A stretch of 64,000 bases of DNA from the NCBI RefSeq assembly GCF_017876435.1, contig NZ_JAGIOA010000001.1, positions 868,001 through 932,000 on the forward strand. The letters are read 5' to 3'. The position numbers were made by a program, and so were the translations under genes. Below the pieces are notes generated by a model, which saw only the letters and a list, made by a program, of their open reading frames with translations, did no database searches and had not been told where the DNA came from. The stretch comes from Microbacterium phyllosphaerae. Its GTDB lineage: Bacteria; Actinomycetota; Actinomycetes; Actinomycetales; Microbacteriaceae. Of this stretch, positions 11,736-32,243 are shown in pieces; the first letter of the stretch is position 1; the number at the start of each line of letters is the position of its first letter.

Positions 11736-11851
11736 GAGTGACTCCTCTTCCGGACGGTCGCGGTGCCGGGAGATCTTCTCGGACGGTCCGTCCTTCTCTT
11801 CAGCCTACGCCTGCGAGAGTGAGGTGGATGCGTGTGAATGGAATTTCTCGG

Positions 11852-12877: not shown

Positions 12878-12940
12878 CGGCTTCCTCCTGTCGTGACATC
12901 TCCAGCTTAGGCAGTGCGCGAGATGCCCCGAAACCACCTG

Positions 12941-12958
12941 AGTTGAATTGATTTAGCA
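12941..12958. promoter_or_regulatory. LacI-type operator upstream of the sucrose/fructan promoter
   Basis: AGTTGAATTGATTTAGCA matches the palindrome at 12998-13017 in its core (TGAATTGATT followed by AGCA). It lies just upstream of the -35 box of the plus-strand operon and in the leader of the divergent LacI gene, so it could support both loop repression and autoregulation. Confidence 0.65.
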
Positions 12959-12964
12959 AAATGC

Positions 12965-12993
12965 TTGCAGCCCCCCATCCGCGATGCTAATCT
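12965..12993 (+). promoter_or_regulatory. Promoter of the sucrose/fructan uptake operon
   Basis: TTGCAG (12965-12970), a 17-base spacer and TAATCT (12988-12993) form a good sigma-70-type promoter. Transcription would start near 13000, inside the downstream operator, with the ribosome site AGGAGA at 13060-13065. Confidence 0.7.
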
Positions 12994-12997
12994 CGGC

Positions 12998-13017
12998 GTG
13001 CTGAATCAATTCAGCAC
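12998..13017. promoter_or_regulatory. LacI-type operator over the transcription start
   Basis: GTGCTGAATCAATTCAGCAC is a 20-base palindrome with only the central positions unpaired. It begins five bases after the -10 box, so a bound repressor would cover the start site. It shares its core with the site at 12941. Confidence 0.75.
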
Positions 13018-13072
13018 CTCCGCGCGGAGACTGCATCCCGCCTGCGGAGTCACTCACTCAGGAGAGAACATC

Positions 13073-15390: not shown

Positions 15391-15397
15391 GGTCATC

Positions 15398-16231
15398 ATG
15401 ACTACGACAATCATCACCAAGCGCTCGTGGGCCCACAGCCTCGGCACAGGCGGAAAGTTCGTCATCCTCGGGCTGGCGGCCTTCCTCACTCTCGGACCGG
15501 TCGTCTGGACCCTCGTCACGGCGCTCTCGCCCACCGACAGCGTCACTCAGGAGGTCACCGTCGGCTTCGGAGCGTTCGCCGATGTCTTCACCAAGATCCC
15601 GCTCTGGCTGTACGCCTGGAACAGCGCGCTCGTGGTGATGCTCGTCGCGGCGGGGCAGATGCTCTCGGCGGCGATGGCGGGCTACGTCTTCGCCAAGTTC
15701 GAGTTCCGCAGCAAGAAGATCCTCTTCGCTCTGATCCTCGCGACCATGATGGTGCCGCTGCAGGTCACGATCGTGCCCGTGTTCATGCTCGTGAGGGGCA
15801 TGGGGCTCGCCGACACGCTCCTGGCGCTCATCGTGCCCGCCCTGCCCACCGCGTTCGGCACGTTCCTGATGCGGCAGTACTTCATGGGGATCCCGACGGA
15901 ACTGGGCGAAGCCGCGCAGCTCGACGGCGCAGGGCCCTGGCGCACGTTCTTCGGCGTCTACCTGCCGCTGGCGACGCCGGCACTCGCGATCGTCGGCATC
16001 CTCGCCTTCAACTATCACTGGAACGAGTTCTTCAGGCCGCTCATCATGACGATCAGCGACCAGAACTTCACCCTGCCATTGGGACTCGTGACGCTGCAGG
16101 GCAACCTCGGCACCGGCAGCATCTCGACGGTGCTCGCCGGAGTGATCCTCTCGATGATCCCTGCGCTCCTGGTGTTCTTCTTCGGGCAGAAGCCGCTGCG
16201 CGAAGGACTCACAGCGGGCGTCGGCAAGTGA
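15398..16231 (+). CDS. Sugar ABC transporter permease, MalG-type
   Basis: Second channel subunit, 277 residues, with about six membrane segments and a clear EAA loop (ELGEAAQLDGAGPWRTFFGVYLPL). The C-terminus FFGQKPLREGLTAGVGK is typical of MalG-type partners. It starts seven bases after the previous stop. The next gene begins within or just after its end. It works with the preceding permease and binding protein in sugar uptake. Confidence 0.9.
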   Translation: MTTTIITKRSWAHSLGTGGKFVILGLAAFLTLGPVVWTLVTALSPTDSVTQEVTVGFGAFADVFTKIPLWLYAWNSALVVMLVAAGQMLSAAMAGYVFAKFEFRSKKILFALILATMMVPLQVTIVPVFMLVRGMGLADTLLALIVPALPTAFGTFLMRQYFMGIPTELGEAAQLDGAGPWRTFFGVYLPLATPALAIVGILAFNYHWNEFFRPLIMTISDQNFTLPLGLVTLQGNLGTGSISTVLAGVILSMIPALLVFFFGQKPLREGLTAGVGK

Positions 16232-16266
16232 CGCACGCCCCCATCAAGGAGAAAGACGACTGCCCG

Positions 16267-17775
16267 GTGACCCCCACTGACCTTCCCCCGGTCCGCACCA
16301 CGAGCCCGCGCATGCACTTCGCCCCGCGCAACAACTGGATGAACGATCCGAACGGTCTCGTCTTCCACGACGGCCTGTACCACCTGTACTTCCAGTACAA
16401 CCCGCAGGGCATCGAACACGCCAACCTCAGCTGGGGTCATGCGACGAGCACCGATCTGCTGCGATGGACCGAGCGCGACCCGGCGATCCTCTGCGATGAC
16501 GATGCGCAGATCTATTCGGGCTCCGTCGTGGTCGATCACGGCAACACGTCCGGATTCGGCACCGACGAGAATCCGGCGCTGGTGGCGCTCTACACGGCCG
16601 CTGCGGCCGGACGACAGGCGCAGGCACTCGCGTACAGCACGGACGGCGGGTACGCCTGGACGAAGTACGACGGCAATCCGGTGCTCGACCGCGGCACGAG
16701 CGACTTCCGTGACCCGAAGGTGTTCCGCTACGACGACGGAGGAGACGGGTACTGGGTGATGGTCGCGGTCGAGGCCGAAGACCGCCAGGTGCTGTTCCAC
16801 CGCTCCGACGACCTCAAGACCTGGACCCTCCTGTCGTCCTATGGTCCGGCGGGCCCGGTCGGCGGTGTGTGGGAGTGCCCCGACATGTTCCCGCTCGCGG
16901 TCGACGGCGATGACGACGACGTGCGCTGGGTGCTGCTGATCAGCCTCAACCCCGGGGGTATCGCGGGTGGTTCAGGAACGCATTACATCGTGGGCGATTT
17001 CGACGGCACGACGTTCCGCGCATCCGTTCCCCACCCCACTCCGACGCGTGCGCTGCTGAGAGACGGGAGTCAGTCGCGCGACGAGTTGGAACGCTACGGC
17101 TGGATCGACTTCGGACCCGACTGCTATGCCGGGGTCACGTTCGACAGCCTCTCGCGCAACGAGCGGACGCTCATCGCCTGGATGGACAACTGGAAGTATG
17201 CCGGTCGCATCCCGACCGACGATTCCGATGAACACCGCAGCGCGATGACTCTTCCCCGACGCCTCTCGCTCGTACGCGATCGGGACGGTGACGTGCGACT
17301 GCGGCAGCATCCGGTGATGGATCTCGAGGCGCCGGAGACATCGGACCTGGGCTCGCTCACTGAGGGTGCCGCGCTCGTCGCGGACGCGTCGGATGCCGTG
17401 CGGATCCGCGTCTCCGCCCTCTTCGGAGACGCGCAGAGTGTCGAACTGCGCATCGGATCCGAGACGGACGCGGACGCGGTCGTGATCCGCCAGGACCGTG
17501 CGAGTGCCCGCATCGAACTCGATCGTCCGGACGCGGGGATGCCGGAGGGCTTCCGGGGATCGTCCTCGGCGCCCCTCGCCCGGGCGGATGAGATCGAGTG
17601 GGAGATCTTGATCGATGCGCTCAACGAGCAGGTGTCGTCGCTCGAGCTGTTCGCCGAGCACGGAGAGAGGGTGCTCACCGCACTGATCCCCGCGTCGTCG
17701 TGCACCTTCGCGCTCGCCGCGGTCGGCGGCCGGCTCCTCCAGGCACGAGCGGACGTCGTGGAGATGCGGTGGTGA
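16267..17775 (+). CDS. GH32 beta-fructofuranosidase (sucrose or fructan hydrolase)
   Basis: Glycoside hydrolase of 502 residues that releases fructose from sucrose, fructo-oligosaccharides or levan. The three GH32 signatures are intact: WMNDPNG with nucleophile Asp27, FRDPK with Asp149 stabilising the transition state, and WECPDMF with acid/base Glu203. A five-bladed propeller is followed by a beta-sandwich domain. No signal peptide is visible, so the substrate is cleaved in the cytoplasm after uptake. GTG at 16267 is preferred; GTG at 16228, overlapping the permease stop by four bases, is an alternative that adds 13 residues. It overlaps the kinase start by four bases. Confidence 0.92.
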   Translation: MTPTDLPPVRTTSPRMHFAPRNNWMNDPNGLVFHDGLYHLYFQYNPQGIEHANLSWGHATSTDLLRWTERDPAILCDDDAQIYSGSVVVDHGNTSGFGTDENPALVALYTAAAAGRQAQALAYSTDGGYAWTKYDGNPVLDRGTSDFRDPKVFRYDDGGDGYWVMVAVEAEDRQVLFHRSDDLKTWTLLSSYGPAGPVGGVWECPDMFPLAVDGDDDDVRWVLLISLNPGGIAGGSGTHYIVGDFDGTTFRASVPHPTPTRALLRDGSQSRDELERYGWIDFGPDCYAGVTFDSLSRNERTLIAWMDNWKYAGRIPTDDSDEHRSAMTLPRRLSLVRDRDGDVRLRQHPVMDLEAPETSDLGSLTEGAALVADASDAVRIRVSALFGDAQSVELRIGSETDADAVVIRQDRASARIELDRPDAGMPEGFRGSSSAPLARADEIEWEILIDALNEQVSSLELFAEHGERVLTALIPASSCTFALAAVGGRLLQARADVVEMRW

Positions 17776-18767
17776 CCGCTCCGCGCTGTCTCGTGGTCGG
17801 CGAGGCTCTCGTCGACGTCGTCGACGGCATGGCGCACCCGGGCGGCTCGCCGCTGAACATCGCCGTCGGCCTCGCCAGACTCGGACTCTCGACGAGCCTT
17901 CTCACCCGGATCGGAGACGACGCGCACGGACGGCTGCTCGAAGAGCATCTGGTCCGAGAGGGAGTCGGGGTGCCGCTGGTGAGCATCCGACCAGGGACGA
18001 GGACTTCCCGTGCGATCGCCGTGATAGGAGCTGACGGCTCGGCCGCCTACGACTTCGACATCGAGTGGGAGCTGTCCGCGCGCGCCGCGATCGTCGAGGC
18101 TGCTGATGCCGAGATCGTTCACGTCGGGTCGATCGGTGCGGCACTCGAGCCGGGAGCCACGGCCGTGCGGGCGATGCTCGCCACTATCCCTCGCGGGATC
18201 CTGCGCACATACGACCCGAACATCCGGCCGGCGCTGCTCGGACCGCGAGACGCCGCCGTGTCGCGCATCGAGTCGATCATGGCCGCATCGCACATCGTGA
18301 AGCTGAGCGATGAGGATGCCGACTGGCTCTACCCCGGTCGCGCGATCGGTGAGGTGCTCGAGCATGTGCTCGACCTCGGAGCCAGGCTGGCCGTCGTCAC
18401 GAGAGGAGGCGAGGGCTGCGTCACCGCGATCGCCGGCGCGGGAGAACCGGTGACGAGGCGTGCGTCGCCTGCGACGGTGGTCGACACGATCGGTGCCGGT
18501 GACGCGTTCATGTCCGGTCTCGTCTATGGGATCGTCTCGTCCGGCCTCGTCCCGGCGCTCACGGCCGCGATCTTCGCTCCCGATGCCGATGCTTCGAGCA
18601 TGCTGGATCAGGCGACGGGAACTGCCCTCGCCAGTGCGGCGATCGCGGTGTCTCGTGCCGGGGCGGCGCCTCCACGCGCCGAGGACCTGGCGCGCTGGCC
18701 GAAGTCAGCAGGAAGCGCACCCCGTCTCGACTCTGCGCCCGCATCGGAGCGCATTCGCGTCGGGTGA
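17772..18767 (+). CDS. PfkB family carbohydrate kinase, probable fructokinase
   Basis: Sugar kinase of 331 residues. The N-terminal substrate region has GGSPLNIAVGLARLG, and the C-terminal PfkB signature DTIGAGDAFMSGL carries the catalytic base Asp244. GTG at 17772 overlaps the GH32 stop as GTGA, so translation is coupled. As the last gene of the sucrose/fructan operon it most likely phosphorylates the fructose released by GH32 to fructose 6-phosphate. The operon therefore covers uptake, hydrolysis and activation. Confidence 0.9.
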   Translation: MTAPRCLVVGEALVDVVDGMAHPGGSPLNIAVGLARLGLSTSLLTRIGDDAHGRLLEEHLVREGVGVPLVSIRPGTRTSRAIAVIGADGSAAYDFDIEWELSARAAIVEAADAEIVHVGSIGAALEPGATAVRAMLATIPRGILRTYDPNIRPALLGPRDAAVSRIESIMAASHIVKLSDEDADWLYPGRAIGEVLEHVLDLGARLAVVTRGGEGCVTAIAGAGEPVTRRASPATVVDTIGAGDAFMSGLVYGIVSSGLVPALTAAIFAPDADASSMLDQATGTALASAAIAVSRAGAAPPRAEDLARWPKSAGSAPRLDSAPASERIRVG

Positions 18768-18942: not shown

Positions 18943-20427
18943 ATGGGACTCGCCACGACACTCAAGCGGATCGAACTCGAGACGCGACCGATACATCCCG
19001 AGACCAGACGTGCTCTCGCCATCCGCTGGTCCGAGTTGCCCGAGCACGCGAAGACACCGAATCAGCTGCTCGGTCGTTGTGCGGTGGGATGTGAGGGAAC
19101 CCATGGTGTCTTCCCGAAGTGCAACCTCACGTGCTCGCCCTGCTACCACTCGGCGGACGCCAACAAGGTGCGCATCGACGGTGACCACACGATCGAGAAC
19201 GTCGAGCGTCAGATGTCGTATCTGCGTCAGGTGCGGGGGCCGCGAGCGCATGCGCAGCTGATCGGCGGTGAGGTCAGTCTGCTCTCGGCGGAGGATCATG
19301 CCCAGGCGCTTCTCGCCATGCGCGCGGTCGGCCGCGAGCCGATGTCGATGACCCACGGCGACTTCGAGTACGACTATCTGCTCGATGTCGTGCTCGACCA
19401 GGATCGCAAGCCGAGGTTCGACAAGGTGTCCTTCGCCGCACACTTCGACTCGCTGATGCGAGGTCGCAAGGGTGCGGTCCGCCCACACAGTGAAGCCGAG
19501 CTCAATCCGTTCCGCGAGAAGTTCGCGCAGATGTTCATCGACCTCAAGCGCGATCACGGAGTCGACAGCTACCTCGCGCACAACATGACCGTGACGCCGT
19601 CCAATGTCGACGAGGTCGAGCAGGTCACCCGCGACGTGCTCGACATGCCGTTCGACATGATGTCCTTCCAGCCGGCCGCGTTCATCGGCGACGACCGGCG
19701 CTGGCGCGAGGACTTCGGCGAGGTCACCATCGACGCCGTGTGGGAGCGGATCGAGGCGGGTGCCGGCCACAAGCTGCCCTGGCAGGCGACCCAGTTCGGC
19801 GACCCGCGATGCAACCGCTCCACGGTCGGCGTGCGGGTCGGCGGCGGGTTCGCGGCGTTGCTCGACCCCGACGATCCGAAGGACATCGCGGCACGCGACC
19901 GGTTCCTCGATCACTTCGGTGGAATGATCTTCGGCGGCATTCCGAAGCCTGTGCTCGTCGTGAAGGTGGTCCGTGCCGTCGCCGGCCACCCGGGTGACAT
20001 CCCTCCTCTCATCGGCCTCGCCCGACGCGTACTCCGCCGGGCGGGCGGACTGCGTCGCGTGCTGCGCGAGGCGCGTCGGGGCAAGGTGTCTTTCAAGACC
20101 TTCGTGGTGCACAACTTCATGGACGCCGAGCAGGTCGACCCGGCGTGGAAGCTCATGGAACAGGGCATCGTCGCCGATGATCCGCTGCTGAAGGAGACTC
20201 AGGAGCGCCTCGGTTCGTGCATGTACGCGATGGCGCATCCGGAGGACGGACGCCTGGTTCCGGCGTGCGTGCAGCACTCCGTGCTCGACCCGATCGAGAA
20301 CGTCGAACTGCGGCGTCTGCTGCCGATCCCCTCGGTGCGTGACGGCGCCGCACCGCAGGTCGTCTCGAGGCCCGCGGGCCTCACGGGCGTCCGCGAGACG
20401 GGCTCGGCGCGGGCCGCCGCTCGCTGA
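18943..20427 (+). CDS. Radical SAM protein of unknown reaction
   Basis: Protein of 494 residues with a radical SAM cluster motif C-x3-C-x2-C at Cys60, Cys64 and Cys67 (KCNLTCSPCYH) and a GGE motif at 108-110 that binds the methionine of SAM. Two more Cys (46 and 50) lie just before the motif and further Cys lie near the C-terminus (RLGSCMYA, LVPACVQHS), which may hold a second metal site. Asp/Asn/Phe-rich central segments are consistent with a (beta/alpha) barrel. ATG at 18943 has GAGAGG five bases upstream. It converges with the ABC transporter operon. I recognise the superfamily only; the substrate is unknown. Confidence 0.82.
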   Translation: MGLATTLKRIELETRPIHPETRRALAIRWSELPEHAKTPNQLLGRCAVGCEGTHGVFPKCNLTCSPCYHSADANKVRIDGDHTIENVERQMSYLRQVRGPRAHAQLIGGEVSLLSAEDHAQALLAMRAVGREPMSMTHGDFEYDYLLDVVLDQDRKPRFDKVSFAAHFDSLMRGRKGAVRPHSEAELNPFREKFAQMFIDLKRDHGVDSYLAHNMTVTPSNVDEVEQVTRDVLDMPFDMMSFQPAAFIGDDRRWREDFGEVTIDAVWERIEAGAGHKLPWQATQFGDPRCNRSTVGVRVGGGFAALLDPDDPKDIAARDRFLDHFGGMIFGGIPKPVLVVKVVRAVAGHPGDIPPLIGLARRVLRRAGGLRRVLREARRGKVSFKTFVVHNFMDAEQVDPAWKLMEQGIVADDPLLKETQERLGSCMYAMAHPEDGRLVPACVQHSVLDPIENVELRRLLPIPSVRDGAAPQVVSRPAGLTGVRETGSARAAAR

Positions 20428-20462
20428 CCCATGCCGGCGCCCCGACGCCGCCCCCGGCCGGA

Positions 20463-21512
20463 TCAGCCGGTGACGACGTGCACGGCCGACGTCGGCAGCA
20501 TCAGCCGGACCCGGTCGCCGAGCTGACACCGCTGCGTCGGAGGCGCCTCGGCGTGCAGCAGGGCGTCGCCGCAGCGGACGGCGATCTCGGAGCGCGCACC
20601 GGTGACCCGGACCGCTTCGACGACACCGGCGATCGCGCCGGCATCCGTAGATCCCGTGCTGTCGTCGAGCACGGCCACGTCCTCCTGCCGGATCACGAGC
20701 GTCCCCCACCCCGCCGGCGTCTGCGGCGGCACCGGAACCGAGCCGAGCGCGCTGTGATGGTTGCCGTCGCGCACCTCGCCGGCGACCTCGTTGCGTCCGC
20801 CCATGATCTGCGCCGCCCGCAGGTTCCGCGGGCGGCGGTAGGCCTCGAGCACGGTCCCCTCGTGCAGGAGCACCCCGTGCTCGAGAAGGGCGATGCGATC
20901 CGAGGCTCGAGCCGCCTCGTCTCGGTCGTGGGTGACGAGCACGATCGTGGGCGAGACCGCCTGCCGCACGGAGTCGAGCAGGTCGTGCATGTCGCTGCGG
21001 AGAGCGGGGTCGAGTGCGCTGAACGGTTCGTCGAGCAGGAGCACCGACGGTTCGGCAGCGAGGGCCCTGGCGATCGCGACCCGCTGCTCCTGTCCGCCGG
21101 ACAGCTCGCCGACCCGCCGATCCCCGAAGCCCTGCAGCTGCACCATCTCGAGGTACTCGCTGGCGCGAGAGCGCGCGGCCCGGCGGTTCATCCCGGAGAC
21201 CCGGTCGGAGAACGCGACGTTGTCGAGGATCGTGAGGTGGGGGAACAGCAGCGAACGCTGGAAGACCATCCCGACTCCGCGGTGTTCTGCCACGACGTCC
21301 GCGACATCCGTTCCGCCGATGCGGACTGCTCCGGCATCCGGCGACTCCAGCCCCGCGATGACCCGCAGCAGGGTGCTCTTTCCCGAGCCGCTGGGGCCGA
21401 GAACCGCCGTGCATGTCCCTGCGGCCACGGTGAGCGAGAACCCGCGCAGCGCCGGGGTGGGCGAGCCGGGGAATCTCTTGTCGAGTCCGTCGAGGACGAG
21501 GTCGGCGCTCAC
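20463..21512 (-). CDS. ABC transporter ATP-binding protein (PotA/FbpC/YnjD-like)
   Basis: Cytoplasmic ATPase of 349 residues. Walker A GPSGSGKST is at 39-47, the signature LSGGQEQRVAIARAL follows, and Walker B plus D-loop read VLLLDEPFSALD. The last 110 residues form a TOBE-type regulatory domain as in spermidine, iron or thiamine importers. The start overlaps the permease stop by four bases. With two permeases and a lipoprotein at 21509-24523 it makes a complete importer. Operon content (TVP38, CDP-alcohol transferase nearby) recalls YnjBCD, whose substrate I cannot state. Confidence 0.9.
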   Translation of the reverse strand: MSADLVLDGLDKRFPGSPTPALRGFSLTVAAGTCTAVLGPSGSGKSTLLRVIAGLESPDAGAVRIGGTDVADVVAEHRGVGMVFQRSLLFPHLTILDNVAFSDRVSGMNRRAARSRASEYLEMVQLQGFGDRRVGELSGGQEQRVAIARALAAEPSVLLLDEPFSALDPALRSDMHDLLDSVRQAVSPTIVLVTHDRDEAARASDRIALLEHGVLLHEGTVLEAYRRPRNLRAAQIMGGRNEVAGEVRDGNHHSALGSVPVPPQTPAGWGTLVIRQEDVAVLDDSTGSTDAGAIAGVVEAVRVTGARSEIAVRCGDALLHAEAPPTQRCQLGDRVRLMLPTSAVHVVTG

Positions 21513-22402
21513 GCGGATGCTCCTGAGGTCGTGGGGTGGGAAGCGGGGGTGGCGGCACCGGAGCGCGACCGAGTGGACGACCGCCGATGCCCTTCGGTGA
21601 CAGGGCTGCGAGACCCGCGCAGCGTCAGCACGGAGACGAGGAGCAGGACCGGGGGGATGACCGCTCCGAGCGACATGACGGCGACGGCGGCATCGTTGCC
21701 GAGGCCGGCGGCGGCTCCTGCCACGATCAGCGGAAGGGTGACGAGTTCGCCTCCGCCGACGATGACCGTCACGATGTAGTCGCTCCAGGCGACGAGGAAC
21801 GCGAGGAACGCGGCGCGAGCGAGAGCCGGAGCGATCATCGGCAGGTGCACGCGTCTGAGCACCTGGGCTCGAGAAGCGCCGAGCAGTCGCGCCTCCTCCT
21901 CGTACGACGGATCGTAGGCGCCGTAGGCCGTGCGCATCACGAAGGTCGTATAGGGCAGGGCCAGCACGACGAGTACGAGCACCACACCGAGGACCGGTGG
22001 GACGTGGGCGCGCAGCAGCAGCACGTTCACGCCGAGCACTGCGGCGAACGGCGGCAGGGCGATGGGCGCGAGCAGCAGTGCCGAGACGGTTCGGGGGAAC
22101 GGCACGGCCCCGAAGGTCAGCGCCCGAGCGGCGAGAGCGCCGAGCGGCGTGGCGATCGCGGCGACCGCGAGTCCGAGAAACACAGACCGTGCGAGTCCGG
22201 GCAGCAGGCCGAAGCCGAGCGCGTCCTCGACGCCCTGCAATCCCCAGGCCGTGGGCAGGGGCGAGGGGAAGGACCAGCCGTCGGCGAACGCCCAGAGCAC
22301 GAGGGGCAGGAACGGCAGGGCGAACCAGACCACCAGCAGCGCGGTGAGAGCGAGGCGGATGACGCGGCCGGCGCCGCGCGGAGTCGTCAGGGTGCTCGAC
22401 AT
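21509..22402 (-). CDS. ABC transporter permease (binding-protein-dependent, PotC-like)
   Basis: Channel subunit of 297 residues with six predicted helices and an EAA-like loop (YDPSYEEEARLLGASRAQVLRRVHLP). The C-terminal 35 residues are polar, rich in Ser, Arg and Thr, and may be a tail or linker. It lies between the ATPase gene (4-nt overlap) and the second permease, with seven bases to the latter. In E. coli YnjC the two permease halves are fused; here they are separate genes. Confidence 0.88.
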   Translation of the reverse strand: MSSTLTTPRGAGRVIRLALTALLVVWFALPFLPLVLWAFADGWSFPSPLPTAWGLQGVEDALGFGLLPGLARSVFLGLAVAAIATPLGALAARALTFGAVPFPRTVSALLLAPIALPPFAAVLGVNVLLLRAHVPPVLGVVLVLVVLALPYTTFVMRTAYGAYDPSYEEEARLLGASRAQVLRRVHLPMIAPALARAAFLAFLVAWSDYIVTVIVGGGELVTLPLIVAGAAAGLGNDAAVAVMSLGAVIPPVLLLVSVLTLRGSRSPVTEGHRRSSTRSRSGAATPASHPTTSGASA

Positions 22403-22409
22403 CGCCCGG

Positions 22410-23285
22410 TCACCGCCAGATCGCAGTACGCCGAAGCGCCGCGAAGGTGAGGGCCACGACGGCCAGCGAGATCGTGCAGGTGGCGAGGGCGACCGCGGCC
22501 GCTTCAGGACGAGAGGCCAGCGAGACGCCCTGGAACAGTCGCACGGCGAGCACGGGCAGCGGCTCCGGATAGGTGCGTCCGAGCAGCCAGGTGACCTCGT
22601 ACGATCCCAGGGCGTAGACGAAGCTGATCGCGGCGCAGATGACGATGGTCGGCGCTGTCAGGGGCAGCAGCACATGGCGGAAGCGGCGCCACCGACCCGC
22701 GCCGAGCAGTGCAGCGGTCTCGTCGTAGGTGGCGATGCGGGTGGCGAGAGTGCCGGTCACCACGAGCGCGACGAATGCCGATTCCTTCCACGCGAACTCC
22801 GCGATCGCCGCTCCCCACAGTGGGCCGCCGACCCAGGGTGCCCACTCCTCGGGCTGTATGCCGAGAATGCGCGGCAGCACACCGGCATCCGAGAGCAGCA
22901 GTCCGATCGTCGCGGCGCCGATGAGGTGCGGCACGGTCACGGTCGTGGCGCCGAGCGCGGCGAGCAGACGACTGCCCGCGCGGCCCGAGGCGATGACGAC
23001 TGCGGCGGAGGTTCCCACGACGACGGCGATCACTGTCGACACGGCCGCGACGGCGATCGACACCCCTGTCGCGGCGGCGAGGTCGTCAGGATGCGCGAGA
23101 AAGGCGTCGATCCCGGGGTTCACCGGGCCCGCGATGGGCATGAGGCCGAGAGCCTGGAGCAGCGTCGCCCCGATCCCGCCACCCACGACGAGCAGCGTCA
23201 CGACGGCGGCGGGAAGCACCAGCAGCGCGCCGCTCAGGAGCTGACGAGCGCTCCCGCGGCGGCGCGCCACCGGCGCGAAGCTCAT
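22410..23285 (-). CDS. ABC transporter permease (PotB-like)
   Basis: Partner channel subunit of 291 residues, six predicted helices, EAA-like loop (YDETAALLGAGRWRRFRHVLLPLTAP). The frame opens much further upstream, but ATG at 23285 overlaps the stop of the binding-protein gene as ATGA, the expected coupled start, and gives the right family N-terminus. It belongs to the same four-gene importer operon. Confidence 0.88.
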   Translation of the reverse strand: MSFAPVARRRGSARQLLSGALLVLPAAVVTLLVVGGGIGATLLQALGLMPIAGPVNPGIDAFLAHPDDLAAATGVSIAVAAVSTVIAVVVGTSAAVVIASGRAGSRLLAALGATTVTVPHLIGAATIGLLLSDAGVLPRILGIQPEEWAPWVGGPLWGAAIAEFAWKESAFVALVVTGTLATRIATYDETAALLGAGRWRRFRHVLLPLTAPTIVICAAISFVYALGSYEVTWLLGRTYPEPLPVLAVRLFQGVSLASRPEAAAVALATCTISLAVVALTFAALRRTAIWR

Positions 23286-24523
23286 CGGCCGAGCACGCCG
23301 GTTCGCCAGCCCTCGTCGAGGGCGGGGACCCACTCTGCGGAGAGTTCGCCGTGCGCGTTCTCCGACAGCACCTCGTACCCGGGAACGACAGGCGATTCCG
23401 GGAGCGTGTCGAACAGGGCGCGGTCGGCATCCGAGAGGCCATCGATGTCGAGAACCGTGAACTGCCCCCACACATCGGGCTGCGCCTTCGCCACCTGCTG
23501 CTCGACCGAGAGCGCGACGTTCGCGACGACCATCGCGCCCGCGACCGAGTCGGAGTTCGCGGGCAGTCCGAGGAAGCTCGCGTTGCCCACGGTGCCGTCC
23601 TCGAGAGGCAGCACAGTGGTTCCCGGCGGGTAGGTGCCATCGGCCACGAGATCGGTGAGCGTCGCCGGCCCGTACGTCATCGTGATGTCGATCTGCCGGT
23701 CGGCGAAGAGCTGTCCGAGCTCGGCCTCGTTCGCCGGGTAGGTGTCGCCGCCACGCCACAGACTCGGGGCCAGGTCATCGAGCCGCTTGTAGAGGGCAGG
23801 GCTCAGTTCGTCGAATGCCTCGTCCGAGTACGCCGCGGGCACCTCGTCGGCGCCGCCCGAGACGCTCGCCAGCACCTCGCGAACGAACACCGATCCGGTG
23901 AAGTCCGGGGGAGCGGGATACGTGAAGCGGCCGGGATTGGCTTCGGCCCACTCGAGCACTTCCTCGAGAGTCGTGGGAGGGTCGGGGATCGCTTCGGCGT
24001 TGTAGGCGAGCGTGAACTGCGCCTTGTGCCAGGGGGCCTCGCAGCCGTCGACGGGGGTTCCGAAGTCGGACTGCAGCAGCGGGTCGTCGGGGTCGGTGGC
24101 CGCCATCGACGGCAGCAGATCGGTCCAGCCGCACAGCCAGGCGTCGGCCTCCTTGCCGGTGCGGAAGTTGTCGCCGTTGACCCAGATGAGGTCGACCGTG
24201 CCGTCTTCGCGGCCGGCCTGGATCTCGGTGAACACCCGGTTCAGCGCATCGCCGGTGTCGGTCACGGGCACCCTCTCGAGCGTCACGCCGTACTCCGCGA
24301 CCGCAGGAGCGAGGATGTCGTCGACGTAGGCGTTGCCCTGATCGTCGCCGCCGTACATCCACAGCTGCACGGTCTGCCCCTCGGCATCCTCGAGCACCGC
24401 ATCCCAGTCGTCGTAGGTCGTCGAGGCGCTGCTCTGGGGAGCCGCGCACGCGGTGAGGGCGATCAGCGGCACGGCGAGCGCGAGAGCCGCGCTCCTCCGA
24501 TGCCATCGTGCGGTGCTGCTCAT
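23282..24523 (-). CDS. ABC transporter substrate-binding lipoprotein (YnjB-like)
   Basis: Lipoprotein of 413 residues with a signal peptide ending in the lipobox LTAC (Cys at about 26). The mature part starts DDWDAVLEDAEGQTVQLWMYGGDDQGNAYVDD (shortened here to its key words: YGGD, NAYVDD), a pattern I associate with YnjB-type binding proteins. Later segments (VDLIWVNGDNF, FTYPAPPDFTGSVF) fit the same group. ATG at 24523 was chosen because the longer frame adds a non-homologous leader. It is the first gene of the importer operon and is divergent from the TVP38 gene, 73 bases away. Ligand unknown. Confidence 0.8.
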   Translation of the reverse strand: MSSTARWHRRSAALALAVPLIALTACAAPQSSASTTYDDWDAVLEDAEGQTVQLWMYGGDDQGNAYVDDILAPAVAEYGVTLERVPVTDTGDALNRVFTEIQAGREDGTVDLIWVNGDNFRTGKEADAWLCGWTDLLPSMAATDPDDPLLQSDFGTPVDGCEAPWHKAQFTLAYNAEAIPDPPTTLEEVLEWAEANPGRFTYPAPPDFTGSVFVREVLASVSGGADEVPAAYSDEAFDELSPALYKRLDDLAPSLWRGGDTYPANEAELGQLFADRQIDITMTYGPATLTDLVADGTYPPGTTVLPLEDGTVGNASFLGLPANSDSVAGAMVVANVALSVEQQVAKAQPDVWGQFTVLDIDGLSDADRALFDTLPESPVVPGYEVLSENAHGELSAEWVPALDEGWRTGVLGR

Positions 24524-24596
24524 CGGGGTTCCTCGCTTCGGAATCGGTGTATCGGCATATCGCCGGGCTAGGGTATAGGAGTCGGGGAGGATGCCT

Positions 24597-25316
24597 GTGG
24601 ATGCTGGTGATTCGCGTGTCAGAGTCGCCCCCTCGAAGCGGTCGGCGATCGTCCGCCTGCTGCTTCTCCTTCTGTTCGTCGCCCTCGTCGGAACGGTTGG
24701 GTATTTCTTCGCCCCGACGGACCTCGAGGCGATACGCGACTGGGCGGCGGGTCTCGGACCGGGCGGCGCGCTGCTGTTCGTCGTCGGATATGCCGCACTC
24801 ACGCTGACCCCGGTGCCCAAGAACCTGCTGACCATCGCAGCAGGTCTCGTGTGGGGCTTCTGGCTCGCTCTCGTGCTCGTCTACGTCGGAGCCCTGCTCG
24901 GTGCCGCGGCGTCATTCGTGATCGGTCGAGCACTCGGCAGGGAGGCCGTCGAACGGCTCACCGGAGCCCGGGTCGCGCGCCTCGACGCCGCCCTCGCCGA
25001 CCGCGGATTCCTCGCGGTGCTCGGAGCGCGACTGGTGCCGATCATCCCGTTCACCCTGATCAACTACGGGGCAGGGCTCACGGCCGTGAGACGCAGGGAC
25101 TATGCACTGGGCACGGCCATCGGCATCCTGCCCGGGTCTGCCGCCTATGTGGCACTCGGCGCGTTCGGGCTCGAGCTCGGGCCGCCCTTCTGGGTGGCGG
25201 TGGCCGTGCTGGGTGTGCTCATCCTCGGCGGCGTCGTGACCGCGGCGATCCTGCGCCGCCGGAACGGCGACCGCTCGTCGTCGGCGCGGAAGGCCGAAGG
25301 CGGTCTCGATGCTTGA
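24597..25316 (+). CDS. TVP38/TMEM64 (VTT domain) family membrane protein
   Basis: Integral membrane protein of 239 residues with about five to six helices. The VTT core shows PVPKNLLTIAAGLVWGFW, GALLGAAASFVIGRALGR and the family hallmark RLVPIIPFTLINYGAGLT. The family includes DedA-like and YdjX/YdjZ proteins and is linked to lipid scrambling or membrane homeostasis. GTG at 24597 is preferred because GGGGAGG ends six bases before it; the ATG at 24591 would abut that site. It overlaps the CDP-alcohol transferase gene by eight bases, so a shared lipid-related role is likely. Confidence 0.88.
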   Translation: MDAGDSRVRVAPSKRSAIVRLLLLLLFVALVGTVGYFFAPTDLEAIRDWAAGLGPGGALLFVVGYAALTLTPVPKNLLTIAAGLVWGFWLALVLVYVGALLGAAASFVIGRALGREAVERLTGARVARLDAALADRGFLAVLGARLVPIIPFTLINYGAGLTAVRRRDYALGTAIGILPGSAAYVALGAFGLELGPPFWVAVAVLGVLILGGVVTAAILRRRNGDRSSSARKAEGGLDA

Positions 25317-25950
25317 CCGTTCTCTGCGGGCCGTGCTCGTCAGACCGCTGGAGGCGACAGCGGCGGCCCTGGACCGACCCGGGATCACGCCCGATCGGCT
25401 GACGGTGCTCGGGCTCGTGCTCGGCGTCGCTTCCGCTGTGACGGCAGGATTCCAGCTGTGGGGGGTCGCTCTCGGGCTGTGGCTCGTCTCGCGCATCGCC
25501 GACGGGCTCGACGGGACCCTCGCCCGACGTCGCAGACGGTTGGCGGAGTCGCAGGGGCGGGAGTCCGCGCCCTCGCATGCGGGCGGATTCCTCGACATCA
25601 CCGCCGACTTCGTCGTCTACGGCGCCACGGTCGTCGGCGTCGCCTTCGGCGCCACGTCGCAGTTCGACGCCCCGTGGTGGCCGTTCCTCGTCGTGCTCCT
25701 GGTCTATTACGTGAACGGCACGGCCTTCCTCGCCTTCTCCTCGATCGCCGAGCGCACTGGGCGCACGATCGACGACGGACGCTCACTGTCGTTCCTCGGC
25801 CGGATCGCCGAGGGCACCGAGACCATCGCGGTGCACGCGCTGTGGCTCATCCTGCCGTTCTGGGCCTGGCAGATCGCGCTCGTCTGGTCGCTCTTCGTCG
25901 CGGTGAGCGCTGTGCAGCGCGTCGTCGTCGGCTATCGCAGCCTGCGCTGA
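25309..25950 (+). CDS. CDP-alcohol phosphatidyltransferase family protein with an enlarged catalytic loop
   Basis: Membrane enzyme of 213 residues expected to join a CDP-activated lipid to an alcohol. The CDP-OH motif starts DGTLAR and ends GGFLDITAD, giving the metal-binding Asp residues. Between AR and G there are 18 residues rather than the usual eight, an insert of about ten rich in Arg, Ser and Glu. Helices follow (WWPFLVVLLVYYV, LWLILPFWAWQIA). The gene overlaps TVP38 by eight bases. By memory YnjF of E. coli belongs to the same family and also follows a transporter. The lipid product is unknown. Confidence 0.85.
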   Translation: MLDRSLRAVLVRPLEATAAALDRPGITPDRLTVLGLVLGVASAVTAGFQLWGVALGLWLVSRIADGLDGTLARRRRRLAESQGRESAPSHAGGFLDITADFVVYGATVVGVAFGATSQFDAPWWPFLVVLLVYYVNGTAFLAFSSIAERTGRTIDDGRSLSFLGRIAEGTETIAVHALWLILPFWAWQIALVWSLFVAVSAVQRVVVGYRSLR

Positions 25951-25966
25951 GTCGGGCCGGGCACGC

Positions 25967-27457
25967 TCAGGACCTGCGGCGGTGGAGACGGGCCAGCAGT
26001 CCGATCGCGAATGCGATCGCCCCGCCCCGCAGACCACGTTGTGCCTCTTTCACGACCGCGTTCCATCCCGCGTCGGAGTATGTCGGGTACGCGTGCATCG
26101 TCGTCGCGAGGGTGCGTACGTTCATCCTCGTCTTCACCGCCACGGTGTACTCGGCCAAGGACTCGCCTGCTCGCGGCCCGACGATCACCGCCCCCGTGAC
26201 GCGGCCGCGGCGATCGACGACGATGTTCGTGAATCCGTCGGTGTGGCCGTCGGCGATCGCCCGATCGAGATGCGAGTGCTGCTGCGTGATCACATGCATC
26301 CCGCGCGCGGACGCGTCGGCGGGCGAGACCCCGACTGCGCCCACCTCGGGTGAGGTGAACGTGACGCGAGGAACGACGTCGGCGTCGATCTTGCGGGAGA
26401 GCCCGAGCACGGCGTTCGTCGCGGCGACGCTGCCGTACATGCCGGCCGTGTGCGTGAACCGCGGCAGCGGGGTGACATCGCCGGCGGCACGGATGCGCGG
26501 GTTCGACGTGCGCAGCGAGGCGTCGACGTCGACCGCTCCTCGGCGATCGAGGGTCACACCGGCTGCCGGCAGCCCGAGGTCGGAGACCTCGACCCGGCGT
26601 CCCAGTGCCGCGAGGGCGCGATCGAACACGACCTGCGTGCCGTCGCTCAGCCGGGCGGTGCCCGATGGTGACGGAGCGTCGTCGGACCCGGCTGAGTCGA
26701 AAGAGCGCACGGTCGTGCCGAGGCGCACGTCGACGCCTTCTGCACGGAGAGCAGCGAGGACGACGGCGCTCGCCGCGGCATCCTCCTTCGGCAGCACCCG
26801 ATCGCCTCGGTGGATCAGCGTGACCTGACTGCCCAGTCGCACCATCGCCTGTGCGATCTCGCAGCCGATCGCGCCACCGCCCTGCACGAGCAGGCGTGCC
26901 GGCAGCGCATCCAGATCCCAGAAGGTCTCGTTCGTGAGCACGTCGATCGATGCCTCGCCCTCGACCGACGTGCGCACCGGCGAACTCCCCGCGGCGATGA
27001 GCGCGTCACGGAACGCGATGCGCTCGCCGTCGACCACGACGGAGCGGGGACCGTCGAACCGCGCGCGGCCGGTGAGCGTGTGGATGCCGTCTCGGTTGAG
27101 CGTCTCAGGGGAGTCGACCGGCTCGATGTCATGGATCGCGGCGTGCACGTGCTGCATCACGGCGGGGAAGTCGACGTGCACCTCGCTCGCGGTCACACCC
27201 AGCCCCGCGCTGCTGCGCGCGGCGTGCGCGGCGGCGGCCGACGCGATGAGAGCCTTCGACGGCACGCAGCCGGTGTGCAGGCATTCGCCTCCGAACCGGT
27301 GCGCCTCGATCAGCAGCACGTGCGCGCCGAGCGCGGCCGCCGTGCGTGCCCCGACGAGTCCGGCGCTTCCGGCCCCGATCACGACCAGGTCCCACGTGCG
27401 TCCGCCTGCCTCGCGCGCGGTCAGTGCGCGCGCCGATCTGCGAGAAGGAGTGCTCAT
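25967..27457 (-). CDS. Pyridine nucleotide-disulfide oxidoreductase (mercuric reductase/lipoamide dehydrogenase-like)
   Basis: Flavoprotein of 496 residues. The FAD dinucleotide fold is at about 24-35 (VVIGAGSAGLVG) and the redox-active pair Cys59 and Cys64 lies in GGECLHTGCVPSKA. NAD(P) binding is in GGGAIGCEIA. The C-terminal dimer segment has MHAYPTYSDAGWN, where lipoamide dehydrogenases have a His-x4-Glu pair. There is no N-terminal heavy-metal domain and no C-terminal Cys pair, so it is not a classical MerA. A basic, hydrophobic tail (AIAFAIGLLARLHRRR) could touch the membrane. It is divergent from the methyltransferase and converges with the CDP-alcohol transferase. Confidence 0.88.
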   Translation of the reverse strand: MSTPSRRSARALTAREAGGRTWDLVVIGAGSAGLVGARTAAALGAHVLLIEAHRFGGECLHTGCVPSKALIASAAAAHAARSSAGLGVTASEVHVDFPAVMQHVHAAIHDIEPVDSPETLNRDGIHTLTGRARFDGPRSVVVDGERIAFRDALIAAGSSPVRTSVEGEASIDVLTNETFWDLDALPARLLVQGGGAIGCEIAQAMVRLGSQVTLIHRGDRVLPKEDAAASAVVLAALRAEGVDVRLGTTVRSFDSAGSDDAPSPSGTARLSDGTQVVFDRALAALGRRVEVSDLGLPAAGVTLDRRGAVDVDASLRTSNPRIRAAGDVTPLPRFTHTAGMYGSVAATNAVLGLSRKIDADVVPRVTFTSPEVGAVGVSPADASARGMHVITQQHSHLDRAIADGHTDGFTNIVVDRRGRVTGAVIVGPRAGESLAEYTVAVKTRMNVRTLATTMHAYPTYSDAGWNAVVKEAQRGLRGGAIAFAIGLLARLHRRRS

Positions 27458-27495
27458 CCCTGAAGCCTAGAGTGGACCCGGAAGCGGGAGGGCGG

Positions 27496-28176
27496 ATGGC
27501 GGCACTGATGCGGCGATACGGCGTGGGCGCGCGCTGGTACGACGTGCTCTCGGGCGAGCGCCTGGTCTATCGGGCCGGTCGGCAGGCGGGGATCGCCTTG
27601 CTCGACCCGGGACCCGGCGATGTCGTCATCGATCTCGGATGCGGGACCGGGCTGAACTTCGCGCTGCTGCTCGCGGCGACGGCGCCGTCAGGGGTCGTGA
27701 TCGGCATCGATCGCAGCTCCGAGATGCTGGCCGTGGCCCAGCGGCGGATCGATCGGCAGGGCTGGCGTGACAGGGTCCGTCTGATCCGGGCGGATGCCGC
27801 AGAGCTGCGGTCGGACGAGGTGGCCCGGGCCGTGATCGACCTGCGTGGCGGCGGCGACGGCCGAGCCGACGCTCTGCTCGCGACCTACTCGCTCAGCGTG
27901 ATCACCGAGCGCGAGGAGGCGTGGCAACGAGCGCGAGCGTGCCTGCGCCCCGACGCGAGGGCGTGCATCGTCGACATGCAGCCGCCGCACGGCTTCTGGC
28001 GTGTGCTCTCACCGCTCGCCCGCCTCGCCTGCGCGACGGGCGGAGCCGACATCGCGGCGCGACCCTGGCGGATGCTCGAGCGTGATGCCGTCGACCCGTC
28101 GTCGGTACGACGTGCCGAGCGCAAGGGCGGCCACATCGTCGCGGTGGCTGCGACGCTCGCGGCTACGCGTCCCTGA
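27496..28176 (+). CDS. Class I SAM-dependent methyltransferase
   Basis: Protein of 226 residues with the Rossmann SAM motif I VVIDLGCGTGLNF at about 37-49, an acidic strand-2 end (VIGIDRSSEML) and motif II/III spacing typical of small-molecule methyltransferases such as UbiE-like enzymes. ATG at 27496 has GGGAGGGC just upstream. It starts 38 bases from the divergent flavoprotein gene, so both may share a control region. Substrate unknown; quinone, lipid or metalloid methylation are all possible. Its end overlaps the TetR stop region of the opposite strand by 14 bases. Confidence 0.85.
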   Translation: MAALMRRYGVGARWYDVLSGERLVYRAGRQAGIALLDPGPGDVVIDLGCGTGLNFALLLAATAPSGVVIGIDRSSEMLAVAQRRIDRQGWRDRVRLIRADAAELRSDEVARAVIDLRGGGDGRADALLATYSLSVITEREEAWQRARACLRPDARACIVDMQPPHGFWRVLSPLARLACATGGADIAARPWRMLERDAVDPSSVRRAERKGGHIVAVAATLAATRP

Positions 28177-29494: not shown

Positions 29495-29512
29495 ACAACC
29501 AAATGGTTGCAC
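29493..29512. promoter_or_regulatory. ArsR autoregulatory operator over the start codon
   Basis: GTACAACCAAATGGTTGCAC is a 20-base near-palindrome (arms CAACCA and TGGTTG). It covers the end of the -10 box, the predicted start of transcription and the ATG. A repressor bound here would block its own operon. Confidence 0.7.
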
Positions 29513-29898
29513 AAAGAGAACTGAGCGAAGCGGAGGTCGACCGTGTGTTCCACGCACTGGCGACGTCGACCCGGCGTGACATCCTGCGCCGGACGATCGA
29601 GCGGGAGCAGTCCGTCTCGACCCTCGCCTCCGAATACGAGATGTCCTTCGCCGCGGTGCAGAAGCACGTGGCCGTGCTCGAAGCGGCGGATCTCATCGTC
29701 AAGCGCGCCGAGGGACGCGAGCGGCTCGTCCGCGCGAACCCCGAGATGATCGCCCGCGCCAGGGCGCTCCTCGCCCGATACGAAGAGCTGTGGCGGTCGC
29801 GCATCGCCCGACTCGATGACCTGCTGGCCGAGACGCCGGCATCTCCTGCAGACACGACCGAAGCCACCGAAGATCCACGAACCGAAGAAGGAGACTGA
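29503..29898 (+). CDS. ArsR-type winged helix regulator
   Basis: DNA-binding protein of 131 residues with a winged helix-turn-helix (FHALATSTRRDILRRTIE, then VSTLASEYEMSFAAVQKHVAVLEAADLIVKR split across the recognition helix). No CXC metal site is seen, so it senses something other than a metal or acts with its SRPBCC partner. It probably represses its own transcription through the palindrome over its start. The stop lies one base before the SRPBCC ATG. ArsR next to an SRPBCC/AHSA1 protein is a common actinobacterial pair. Confidence 0.87.
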   Translation: MVAQRELSEAEVDRVFHALATSTRRDILRRTIEREQSVSTLASEYEMSFAAVQKHVAVLEAADLIVKRAEGRERLVRANPEMIARARALLARYEELWRSRIARLDDLLAETPASPADTTEATEDPRTEEGD

Positions 29899-29899
29899 C

Positions 29900-30877
29900 A
29901 TGCCCGTCACGGATGTCACCACCGATGCCGACAACCTCACCATGACCGTCGTCGCCGATTTCGCGGCGCCGATCGAGCGGGTCTGGGCCGCGTACAGCGA
30001 CCCGCGCCAGCTCGAGCGCTTCTGGGGTCCTCCCGGATGGCCGGCGACCTTCACCGCCTGGGACCACACGGTCGGCGGCAAGGCGAACTACACGATGAAC
30101 GGACCCCGCGGTGAGAAGGCCTCGGGCACGTGGGAGTTCCTGCGCATCGAGGCCCCGCACGGCTTCGAGGTGCTCGACTCTTTCGCCGACGACGAGGGCA
30201 CCCCTGACCCGAACCTGCCCTCGATGCGGATGGTCTTCTCGTTCGAGTCGACCGCCGAGGGCGCCCGCATGGTCACCACGAGCCACTTCGCGTCTGCCGA
30301 TGCGCTGGAGCAGGTCGTCTCGATGGGGATGGTCGAGGGCACGAAGCTCGCGATGAGTCAGATCGACGCCGTGCTGCAGGACCTCCGCGACTACGCGCAG
30401 GGCAAGGGCACGCGGGTCGAGCTGCTCGACGACGTGCACGTGCGCATCACGCGCCTCGTCGAGGGACCCCGTGATCTGGTCTGGCGTGCGCACAACGAAC
30501 CCGAGCTCATGAAGCAGTGGCTGCTCGGACCCGACGGGTGGGAGATGACCGAGTGCATCGTCGCCACGGAGGTCGGCCAGACCTACCGCAACTCGTGGGC
30601 GCCGGTCGGCGACACCGAGGGGCAGCCGTTCGGCTTCGAGGGGGAGGCGCTGCTGATCGACGCGCCTCGCCGGTCGGTCAACACCGAGCGGATGATCGGG
30701 ATGCCGGTCGAGACGCTGAACGACCTGAACCTCTACGAGGAGGACGGCGCGACGCTGATCACCCTGCTGATCGAGTACCCCGACAAGGAGACGCGCGACA
30801 TGATCCTCGCCACCGGCATGGCCGACGGCATGGAGACGTCGTACGACCGTCTCGAGCGGGAGCTGCTCGCGGTCTGA
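29900..30877 (+). CDS. Double-domain SRPBCC (AHSA1-like) protein
   Basis: Protein of 325 residues with two SRPBCC/START-like domains, each about 150 residues (first from DADNLTMTVVADFAAPIERVWAAYSDP, second from DDVHVRITRLVEGPRDLVWRAHNEPEL, only the key words named: VWAAYSDP, VWRAHNEP). The fold makes a hydrophobic pocket for small molecules. ATG at 29900 lies next to the ArsR stop with GAAGGAGAC upstream. Bound ligand unknown. The duplication in one chain is less common than a single domain. Confidence 0.85.
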   Translation: MPVTDVTTDADNLTMTVVADFAAPIERVWAAYSDPRQLERFWGPPGWPATFTAWDHTVGGKANYTMNGPRGEKASGTWEFLRIEAPHGFEVLDSFADDEGTPDPNLPSMRMVFSFESTAEGARMVTTSHFASADALEQVVSMGMVEGTKLAMSQIDAVLQDLRDYAQGKGTRVELLDDVHVRITRLVEGPRDLVWRAHNEPELMKQWLLGPDGWEMTECIVATEVGQTYRNSWAPVGDTEGQPFGFEGEALLIDAPRRSVNTERMIGMPVETLNDLNLYEEDGATLITLLIEYPDKETRDMILATGMADGMETSYDRLERELLAV

Positions 30878-31493: not shown

Positions 31494-32243
31494 TCAGATC
31501 AGGCGGCGGAGCGCCTCTTCGAGCGTGACGCCCTGGGCCTCGGCGCGGTCGCGCAGCCGGGCATGCTCATCGCTCGACAGCGCCAGGCTCACGACGATCG
31601 GGTCGTCGACCGGAGCATCGAGCCCGTCGAGCAGATCGGACGCCTCGGCCCAGAGCGGCTCGGCGACGGCCGTCGAGGCAGCGGGGCGGGAAGAGGGGGC
31701 AGGGGCGGAAGAGGCCGCGGATGCCGGTGCCGCGGCGGCGATCGGTGCGGAGGCTGCCGCAGCTGCGCCGGCATCCGTCGCCAGGGTGAATCCGGGCCCT
31801 CGGCGCGGCTCCTGCTTCGCCTGGTACGCCTTGGCCGCGGCATTCGCGCGCTCGTCGGCCGCCTCGTTGAGGGGGTGGCCGGCGTGCCCCTTGACCCACG
31901 AGAACTCGACGTCGCGTCCGCGGATCGCCTCGTCGATGCCCTCGAGCAGGTCGCGGTTGAGCACGGGTCCGCCGTCGGACTTGCGCCAGCCCTTGCGCTT
32001 CCACCCCGGCATCCACTTGGTCACCGAATCGATCACGTAGCGGCTGTCGCACTCGATCATGAGCTTCTCGGAGATGCCCGCCGTCGCCTGCAGCAGCTCG
32101 AGCACAGCCCGCAGCTCACCCTGGTTGTTGGTGCCGTGGGGGGATCCGCCCGCAGCCCAGTTGTCGTCGTCGATGTACCAGGCCCAGCCGTTGGGGCCGG
32201 GATTGCCCAGGGCGGAGCCGTCTGCGGCGGCGGTGATCGTCAT
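31494..32243 (-). CDS. rnhA: Ribonuclease HI with C-terminal extension
   Basis: Enzyme of 249 residues that cuts RNA in RNA-DNA hybrids. Residues 1-140 are RNase HI with the four acidic metal ligands Asp8 (AADGSA), Glu43 (NQGEL), Asp66 (ECDSRY) and Asp130 (EAADERAN). Residues about 145-205 are an Ala/Pro/Ser linker. The last 35 residues (VVSLALSSDEHARLRDRAEA, then VTLEEALRRLI) read as a strand and two helices like a ribbon-helix-helix unit. A DNA-binding tail on RNase HI would be unusual, and that part is an inference from pattern only. Confidence 0.88.
   Translation of the reverse strand: MTITAAADGSALGNPGPNGWAWYIDDDNWAAGGSPHGTNNQGELRAVLELLQATAGISEKLMIECDSRYVIDSVTKWMPGWKRKGWRKSDGGPVLNRDLLEGIDEAIRGRDVEFSWVKGHAGHPLNEAADERANAAAKAYQAKQEPRRGPGFTLATDAGAAAAASAPIAAAAPASAASSAPAPSSRPAASTAVAEPLWAEASDLLDGLDAPVDDPIVVSLALSSDEHARLRDRAEAQGVTLEEALRRLI

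Follow-up and report, generated by a model that had tools for sequence, protein, structure and literature searches.

What does a bacterium do with a solute importer that is kept beside a radical S-adenosylmethionine (SAM) enzyme and a cytidine diphosphate (CDP)-alcohol transferase? Such genes lie at 18943-28176 of the stretch analysed here, a 64,000-nucleotide window of the Microbacterium phyllosphaerae genome (G000, 3.73 Mb; contig 1, positions 868001-932000). A sequence-only reading had grouped a radical SAM protein, a YnjBCD-like ATP-binding cassette (ABC) importer, a TVP38-type protein (here called VTT after its domain), a CDP-alcohol transferase, a disulfide flavoprotein and a methyltransferase there; all are present and intact, in nine adjacent genes instead of the eight it had counted. 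We found that these nine genes are, near certainly, one co-inherited module carried by several actinobacterial groups.

Co-inheritance of the nine genes

How regularly do the genes occur together? Among 150 Microbacteriaceae genomes, the window's own included, seven carry the radical SAM gene (G000, G314, G319, G320, G328, G381 and G391) and seven carry YnjB above its family cut-off (G000, G314, G319, G326, G328, G381 and G391), with six further genomes having sub-cut-off YnjB-family matches that were left uncounted. The transferase is found in eight genomes, which are the union of these two sets; the flavoprotein, at 50% identity or more, is found in that union plus G363 and G385 (10/150, rising to 17 at a looser E-value); and the methyltransferase is found in seven (G000, G314, G320, G328, G391, G363 and G385). 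Every one of the seven radical SAM genomes thus has the transferase and the flavoprotein, six have YnjB and five have the methyltransferase. The module members span 8.2 to 9.9 kb in the six genomes where the span was taken, and in G381 the flavoprotein gene is on the same contig, away from the other members. Hypergeometric probabilities for association with the radical SAM gene, calculated over 149 genomes with G000 excluded and shared ancestry ignored, are 6e-8 for YnjB, 5e-10 for the transferase, 6e-9 for the flavoprotein and 1e-5 for the methyltransferase. Similarly, in a phylum-wide sample of 246 genomes the radical SAM gene occurs in 6, YnjB above cut-off in 21 and both in 4 (p 0.004 without G000), one of the four being G140, where the two are on separate contigs.

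The same association extends well beyond this family. Scanning the radical SAM alignment against one genome per species (84,980 species) returned 256 relatives, the best 80 of which were kept and gave 79 loci, a set biased to close kin. These come from Microbacteriaceae, Micrococcaceae, Geodermatophilaceae, Intrasporangiaceae, Kineosporiaceae, Nocardiaceae and Nocardioidaceae. Where at least 8.5 kb was available on each side (51/79 loci), the transferase was present in 46, the flavoprotein in 45, YnjB in 44, VTT in 35 and the methyltransferase in 28, and YnjB, YnjD, VTT, transferase, flavoprotein and methyltransferase were all present in 24. Presence was called with self-set identity floors of 35-50%, because of which the flavoproteins of L107, L108, L110, L113 and L115 (37-40%) are uncounted. 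Gene order is variable: several Arthrobacter relatives have VTT, transferase, flavoprotein and methyltransferase genes followed by radical SAM and YnjBCD genes, and at L065 and L067 no importer is near the radical SAM gene. The record L053 bears the title Planococcus, which may be wrong; its module proteins are 52-84% identical to those of the window and their order is identical.

The sequence-only reading had called the genes a conserved module, to be regarded as mere neighbours should the radical SAM, flavoprotein and methyltransferase genes prove not to co-occur with the importer. Across genomes they do co-occur, and the module is strongly supported: the radical SAM, flavoprotein and transferase genes accompany the importer in most loci. 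The methyltransferase is a looser member, both in the well-flanked loci (28/51) and in the radical SAM-bearing Microbacteriaceae genomes (5/7).

Relatives, enzymes and importer cargo

The comparison with E. coli ydjXYZ-ynjABCDEF made in the sequence-only reading holds. In both loci VTT, YnjB, YnjC, YnjD and a YnjF-like transferase are encoded side by side. However, YnjC is fused in E. coli and its counterpart is split in the window; the E. coli locus has YdjY, YnjA and YnjE, to which nothing in the window matches; and the window has a radical SAM enzyme, a flavoprotein and a methyltransferase, which the E. coli locus does not. The 79 related loci likewise contain no YdjY (0/79) and no YnjE (0/79), with YnjA/AhpD-like matches in 14/79. 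The window module is therefore a richer version of the ynj-type locus. The open-licence literature searched gave no assigned function for the E. coli ynj operon and, in titles and abstract openings, no description of the present module; in the available part of PMC9405208, ynjB appears only in a table of knockout correlations.

Cassettes of YnjBCD, VTT, flavoprotein and transferase genes without the radical SAM gene occur in Metabacillus, a Klebsiella plasmid, Paracoccus, Falsirhodobacter, Pseudoalteromonas, Catenovulum, Ciceribacter and some deep-branching Actinomycetota. Similar YnjB or transferase proteins are among the matches listed for Salmonella, Citrobacter and Providencia plasmids. 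The first five cassettes share those four components with the window but have neither its kind of radical SAM enzyme nor its methyltransferase, and in four of them (Klebsiella, Paracoccus, Falsirhodobacter and Pseudoalteromonas) VTT is fused to the flavin adenine dinucleotide (FAD) protein, whereas the window has separate genes. DUF2282, DUF692 and DoxX genes and a sigma factor gene adjoin the VTT-FAD, YnjBCD and transferase genes at L118 2101-13581 (Klebsiella plasmid) and L171 1635-12446 (Paracoccus plasmid).

What chemistry could the added enzymes perform? The closest relatives of the radical SAM protein are from Microbacterium (96-98% identity). Its CX3CX2C motif (C60/C64/C67) and C50, C290, C426 and C442 are invariant in 35 aligned sequences, and the only cysteines before the radical SAM site are C46, which is not conserved, and C50. 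The predicted model resembles the fold of tetraether synthase (Tes), and the protein appears to represent a family of Tes-like fold that is outside every curated family tested. Neither true Tes (NF045702; 21.3 bits against a cut-off of 450) nor TrsS (NF045646; 27.3 against 490) fits. The CX3CX2C motif is common to Tes and the window protein; in contrast, the cysteines of the N-terminal rubredoxin and cluster sites of Tes/GDGT-MAS (MJ0619), three at each site plus a histidine according to the available part of PMC9433317, are absent from the window protein, and the gene partners differ. Profile searches of the PDB gave nothing useful, and another search listed only weak FhuA matches.

The transferase scores 35.6 bits for PF01066 (cut-off 22), and D65-G66-D68-G69-A72-R73...G92-D96-D100 are kept in at least 95% of 71 aligned sequences; this is D-x2-DG-x2-AR ... 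G-x3-D-x3-D, the catalytic motif of CDP-alcohol phosphatidyltransferases. Other lipid genes, for a lysophospholipid acyltransferase and a sterol desaturase, adjoin YnjBCD elsewhere. The flavoprotein has cysteines only at 59, 64 and 199, of which the C59/C64 pair is kept, and it does not reach the cut-offs for MerA, RclA or hypothiocyanous acid reductase. Mercuric reductase MerA (TIGR02053; 336 bits against 454) has C-terminal vicinal cysteines, whereas the window protein has no cysteine after C199; this identity was rejected on both grounds. Likewise, the methyltransferase is far from arsenite methyltransferase ArsM (NF008823; 36.2 bits against 263). ArsM needs conserved cysteines beyond motif I, and only C49, in motif I, is conserved in 39 aligned methyltransferase sequences, a point against arsenite methylation.

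YnjB clearly belongs to its subfamily and its predicted model is good (predicted local distance difference test score, pLDDT, 90.8). The neighbours of its relatives point to a cargo. Thirteen of the genomes we label f18 have YnjB, and 12 loci were fetched (a split match in G184 and a second copy in G141 were omitted), neighbouring genes being picked with a rough script. A PF01156 nucleoside hydrolase gene lies directly upstream of YnjB in six of the 12 (L126, L127, L130, L132, L133 and L134), itself directly preceded by an APH-type kinase gene in four; five of the remaining loci instead have VTT, flavoprotein or transferase genes, L131 having neither kind of neighbour. A hydrolase of this kind also precedes YnjB in Peptoclostridium, and in L144 YnjBCD is flanked by hydrolase and kinase genes. 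Pfam was used to check the hydrolases of L134, L122 and L144; the other five f18 hydrolases were grouped with that of L134 by BLAST. With their YnjBCD, hydrolase and kinase genes, L126, L130, L133, L134 and L144 resemble a catabolic form of this importer locus. In Sphingopyxis a NupC-type transporter gene (nucleoside transporter domain, 194 bits; NupC subfamily, 249 against a cut-off of 442) is directly upstream of the transferase gene, in a stretch with no match to YnjB, YnjC or YnjD.

In a 44-row YnjB tree with context labels assigned by hand, the hydrolase label (8 rows) needs six changes, at least five of them forced by well-supported branches. Because hydrolase and lipid-gene contexts are intermixed within the YnjB clade, we suggest that a single ligand meets two fates. 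The radical SAM label (14 rows) needs only two changes, one of them at L139, which was marked as lacking the gene although it sits on another contig; the radical SAM gene thus probably entered the YnjB lineage once. The earlier claim that the module imports a compound can be narrowed accordingly: from its gene neighbours, the cargo may be a riboside or similar polyol.

A candidate lipid pathway and its rivals

What, then, might the module make? We tentatively propose that it takes up a small hydroxylated compound, most likely a nucleoside-like riboside or a similar polyol, and makes a modified membrane lipid from it. YnjB would bind the compound outside, and the two permeases and the ATPase would import it. 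The CDP-alcohol transferase would join the compound or its phosphate to CDP-diacylglycerol, and the VTT protein may shift the resulting lipid between leaflets. The radical SAM enzyme, predicted to be built like tetraether lipid synthase, could modify the lipid or its head group by radical chemistry; the methyltransferase, in lineages possessing it, would methylate the product; and the flavoprotein would supply NAD(P)H-driven thiol reduction. Observed here are the module and its co-inheritance, the motifs that it conserves, a model whose fold resembles that of Tes, and neighbours that replace one another around YnjB; the cargo, the product, the order of steps, the direction of lipid movement and the roles of the flavoprotein and methyltransferase are inferences. 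Of the suggested "membrane lipid synthesis or repair", synthesis is favoured by the Tes-like model fold, the transferase motif and the lipid genes beside YnjBCD; repair gained no support of its own. A bolder version, which we regard as doubtful, is a new phospholipid class in aerobic Actinomycetota, in which the YnjF-type transferase would attach an imported or self-made 5-modified riboside, perhaps arsenic-bearing, to phosphatidate and a new radical SAM family of Tes-like fold would complete the product; E. coli ydjXYZ-ynjABCDEF would then be a reduced version serving salvage, with arsenosugar phospholipids as chemical relatives.

Several observations weigh against this lipid pathway. The best structural matches of YnjB are nearly tied across many ligand types, polyamine, thiamine and iron binders being level with sugar and dinucleotide binders, so that structure gave no answer as to its ligand. 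A PF01156 gene is absent from G000, and in 12 radical SAM genomes it occurs in six, never adjoining the module. The radical SAM model has a mean pLDDT of 76.5, falling below 50 at residues 55-77, the iron-sulfur loop; Tes is absent from Foldseek's top 50 for this model, and a profile search of the PDB with the protein gave no match. At L044, L077 and L079 the radical SAM gene has none of the window's other families within 10 kb, and the flavoprotein-methyltransferase pair stands alone in 2/150 Microbacteriaceae genomes (G363 C1:244907-248285 and G385 C16:58253-60393).

The separability of that pair, together with the mixed strands of the nine genes, which are therefore not a single operon, is what one would expect of mere neighbours. 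Against this, the genes are close together in most loci, in seven actinobacterial families and in reshuffled order, and the core recurs in other phyla; given the co-occurrence counts, a chance neighbourhood is scarcely credible and close to refuted. A different division of labour, in which YnjBCD would import a polyamine, thiamine, a metal or an anion and the lipid and radical genes would work on another substrate, is very improbable. The available part of a review (PMC9397018) lists YnjB as a polyamine-binding protein in a table, and such binders are among its structural matches; however, those matches are tied as described, and the inspected loci show no genes for the biosynthesis or catabolism of such compounds beside YnjBCD, the one exception being thiamine genes some 2.4 kb past the Falsirhodobacter copy. 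The radical SAM enzyme might also couple lipid tails as Tes does, the other proteins supplying and moving the lipid of a membrane-spanning pathway. The model's fold would suit this, as would the proposal, in the available part of PMC8941075, that bacterial Tes homologues make branched tetraethers, but the Tes score is far below its cut-off and two cysteines, C46 and C50, cannot fill the rubredoxin and N-terminal cluster sites, making this improbable. We also consider it decidedly unlikely that the module answers thiol, oxidant or metal stress, with the flavoprotein, which has AhpD-like partners elsewhere, detoxifying a reactive compound and the importer, VTT protein and transferase serving membrane upkeep. 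Related loci do contain matches to extracytoplasmic function (ECF) sigma factors (10/79), CRP-family regulators (17/79) and, as noted, YnjA/AhpD-like proteins; MsrA and MsrB are near the Metabacillus copy, the DUF2282/DUF692/DoxX genes are near the Klebsiella and Paracoccus copies, and the available part of PMC2731931 includes a BaeR table in which E. coli ynjA and ynjB are slightly up. Yet the window gave no hit to these three queries, the flavoprotein does not reach the relevant cut-offs, and stress defence has no need for a Tes-like radical SAM enzyme, nucleoside hydrolases or a nucleoside transporter.

Organoarsenic metabolism is an unlikely but more serious rival. The module would make or handle an arsenosugar-type 5-modified riboside and its phospholipid, the radical SAM enzyme adding a 5'-deoxyadenosyl or related group and the transferase forming an arsenosugar-like phospholipid. 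For example, in L107 the radical SAM gene is followed by a nucleoside-phosphorylase-like gene, whose 145 bits fall short of the MTAP cut-off (275), and by glycosyltransferase genes of TIGR04282 (166 against 134) and TIGR04283 (217 against 182), family names that rest on their curators. In L050 (Microbacteriaceae) the order is radical SAM, an APH-like kinase (sharing 28-33% identity with those of L127, L130 and L134), TIGR04283 (246 against 182), YnjD and YnjC. Similarly, a TIGR04283 gene directly precedes the radical SAM gene of G100; L143 has YnjBCD with TIGR04282 and TIGR04283, two VTT genes and YdjY; L163 has YdjY, VTT, TIGR04283, ArsS-like and phosphorylase-like genes; and a B. glumae plasmid has ArsS near a distant radical SAM relative. 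In L046 (Microbacterium proteolyticum) ArsR-type and arsenate-reductase-like genes lie between the radical SAM gene and YnjDCCB. Overall, a few relatives of the radical SAM enzyme, YnjBCD, VTT and YdjY are in or beside arsenosugar clusters. We do not rank arsenic as the best reading, because none of the three cluster markers (ArsS, TIGR04282 and TIGR04283) has a match in G000, the 12 radical SAM genomes have ArsS above cut-off in 0/12 and TIGR04282 in 3/12, and the ars genes of L046 have no match in the other loci of the 79-locus set. The B. glumae ArsS query likewise matched 0/79 loci, and the methyltransferase keeps its motif I cysteine only. The L046 region (11650-17127) holds ArsR-type regulators, an ArsO-like flavoprotein (53 bits against 425), a thioredoxin reductase and arsenate-reductase-like genes, one of them ArsR-fused. 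Separately, L158 1952-3709 and L160 10893-12566 encode metallophosphoesterase-radical SAM fusions of the Rv1681 kind (below its cut-off), adjoining TIGR04283 genes.

Locus layout and significance

Table 1. The nine genes and the shared promoter region, in window coordinates
Coordinates	Strand	Feature	Basis
18943..20427	+	Radical SAM protein, 494 aa	family without a curated name
20463..21512	-	YnjD-type ABC ATPase, 349 aa, TOBE_2 domain	family/domain scores
21509..22402	-	YnjC-type permease, second half of split gene	family/domain scores
22410..23285	-	YnjC-type permease, first half of split gene	family/domain scores
23282..24505	-	YnjB solute-binding lipoprotein-like protein, 407 aa	NF008633, 437.6 bits (cut-off 203)
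24506..24590	.	Divergent promoter region, YnjB/VTT gap	sequence inspection
24591..25316	+	VTT-domain (TVP38/DedA superfamily) membrane protein, 241 aa	PF09335, 95.2 bits (cut-off 33.9)
25309..25950	+	CDP-alcohol transferase, YnjF-like, 213 aa	PF01066, alignment of 71 sequences
25967..27457	-	Pyridine nucleotide-disulfide flavoprotein, 496 aa, redox pair C59/C64 (CX4C)	family scores, alignment
27496..28176	+	Class I SAM methyltransferase, 226 aa	family scores, alignment

The 4- and 8-base overlaps described for each half of the locus are seen between the ATPase and permease genes (4 bases), the permease and YnjB genes (4) and the VTT and transferase genes (8); the two permease genes are instead separated by a 7-base gap. 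The YnjB/VTT and flavoprotein/methyltransferase pairs are divergent, with 85 and 38 bases between them, and the radical SAM and ATPase genes are convergent, 35 bases apart. In the larger divergent gap, TAGGGT at 24569-24574 precedes the VTT gene, and by eye it is in the same place in Microbacterium loci. Low-oxygen use would suit a radical SAM enzyme. The available part of PMC3688515 includes E. coli ydjXYZ-ynjABCD in a table of FNR-regulon operons; no exact FNR- or CRP-like half-site pairs were found in 48 intergenic stretches between YnjB and VTT or transferase genes, the window's included. Upstream (15398-18767) are sugar-uptake genes, encoding an ABC permease, a glycosyl hydrolase of family 32 and a PfkB carbohydrate kinase. 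The PfkB-type kinase and a downstream TetR-family gene look to be outside the module, because they were matched, at self-set identity floors, in 1/79 and 0/79 related loci. Further downstream are a helix-turn-helix regulator and then a two-domain AHSA1/SRPBCC protein with overlapping coordinates (29503-30877), and an RNase H domain protein with a long low-complexity tail on the minus strand (31494-32243).

Finally, parts of the ynj locus are met again on both plasmids and chromosomes across several phyla. The co-inherited module is real and is a new form of the ynj kind, with a radical SAM family of Tes-like fold. Since this version adds enzymes of more readable chemistry, the open ynj question can be put to specific tests: whether the imported compound is a riboside, whether a lipid is made, and what role the Tes-like radical SAM enzyme plays in actinobacteria such as Microbacterium and Arthrobacter. 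If the lipid reading is true, these bacteria contain membrane lipids that are worth looking for.

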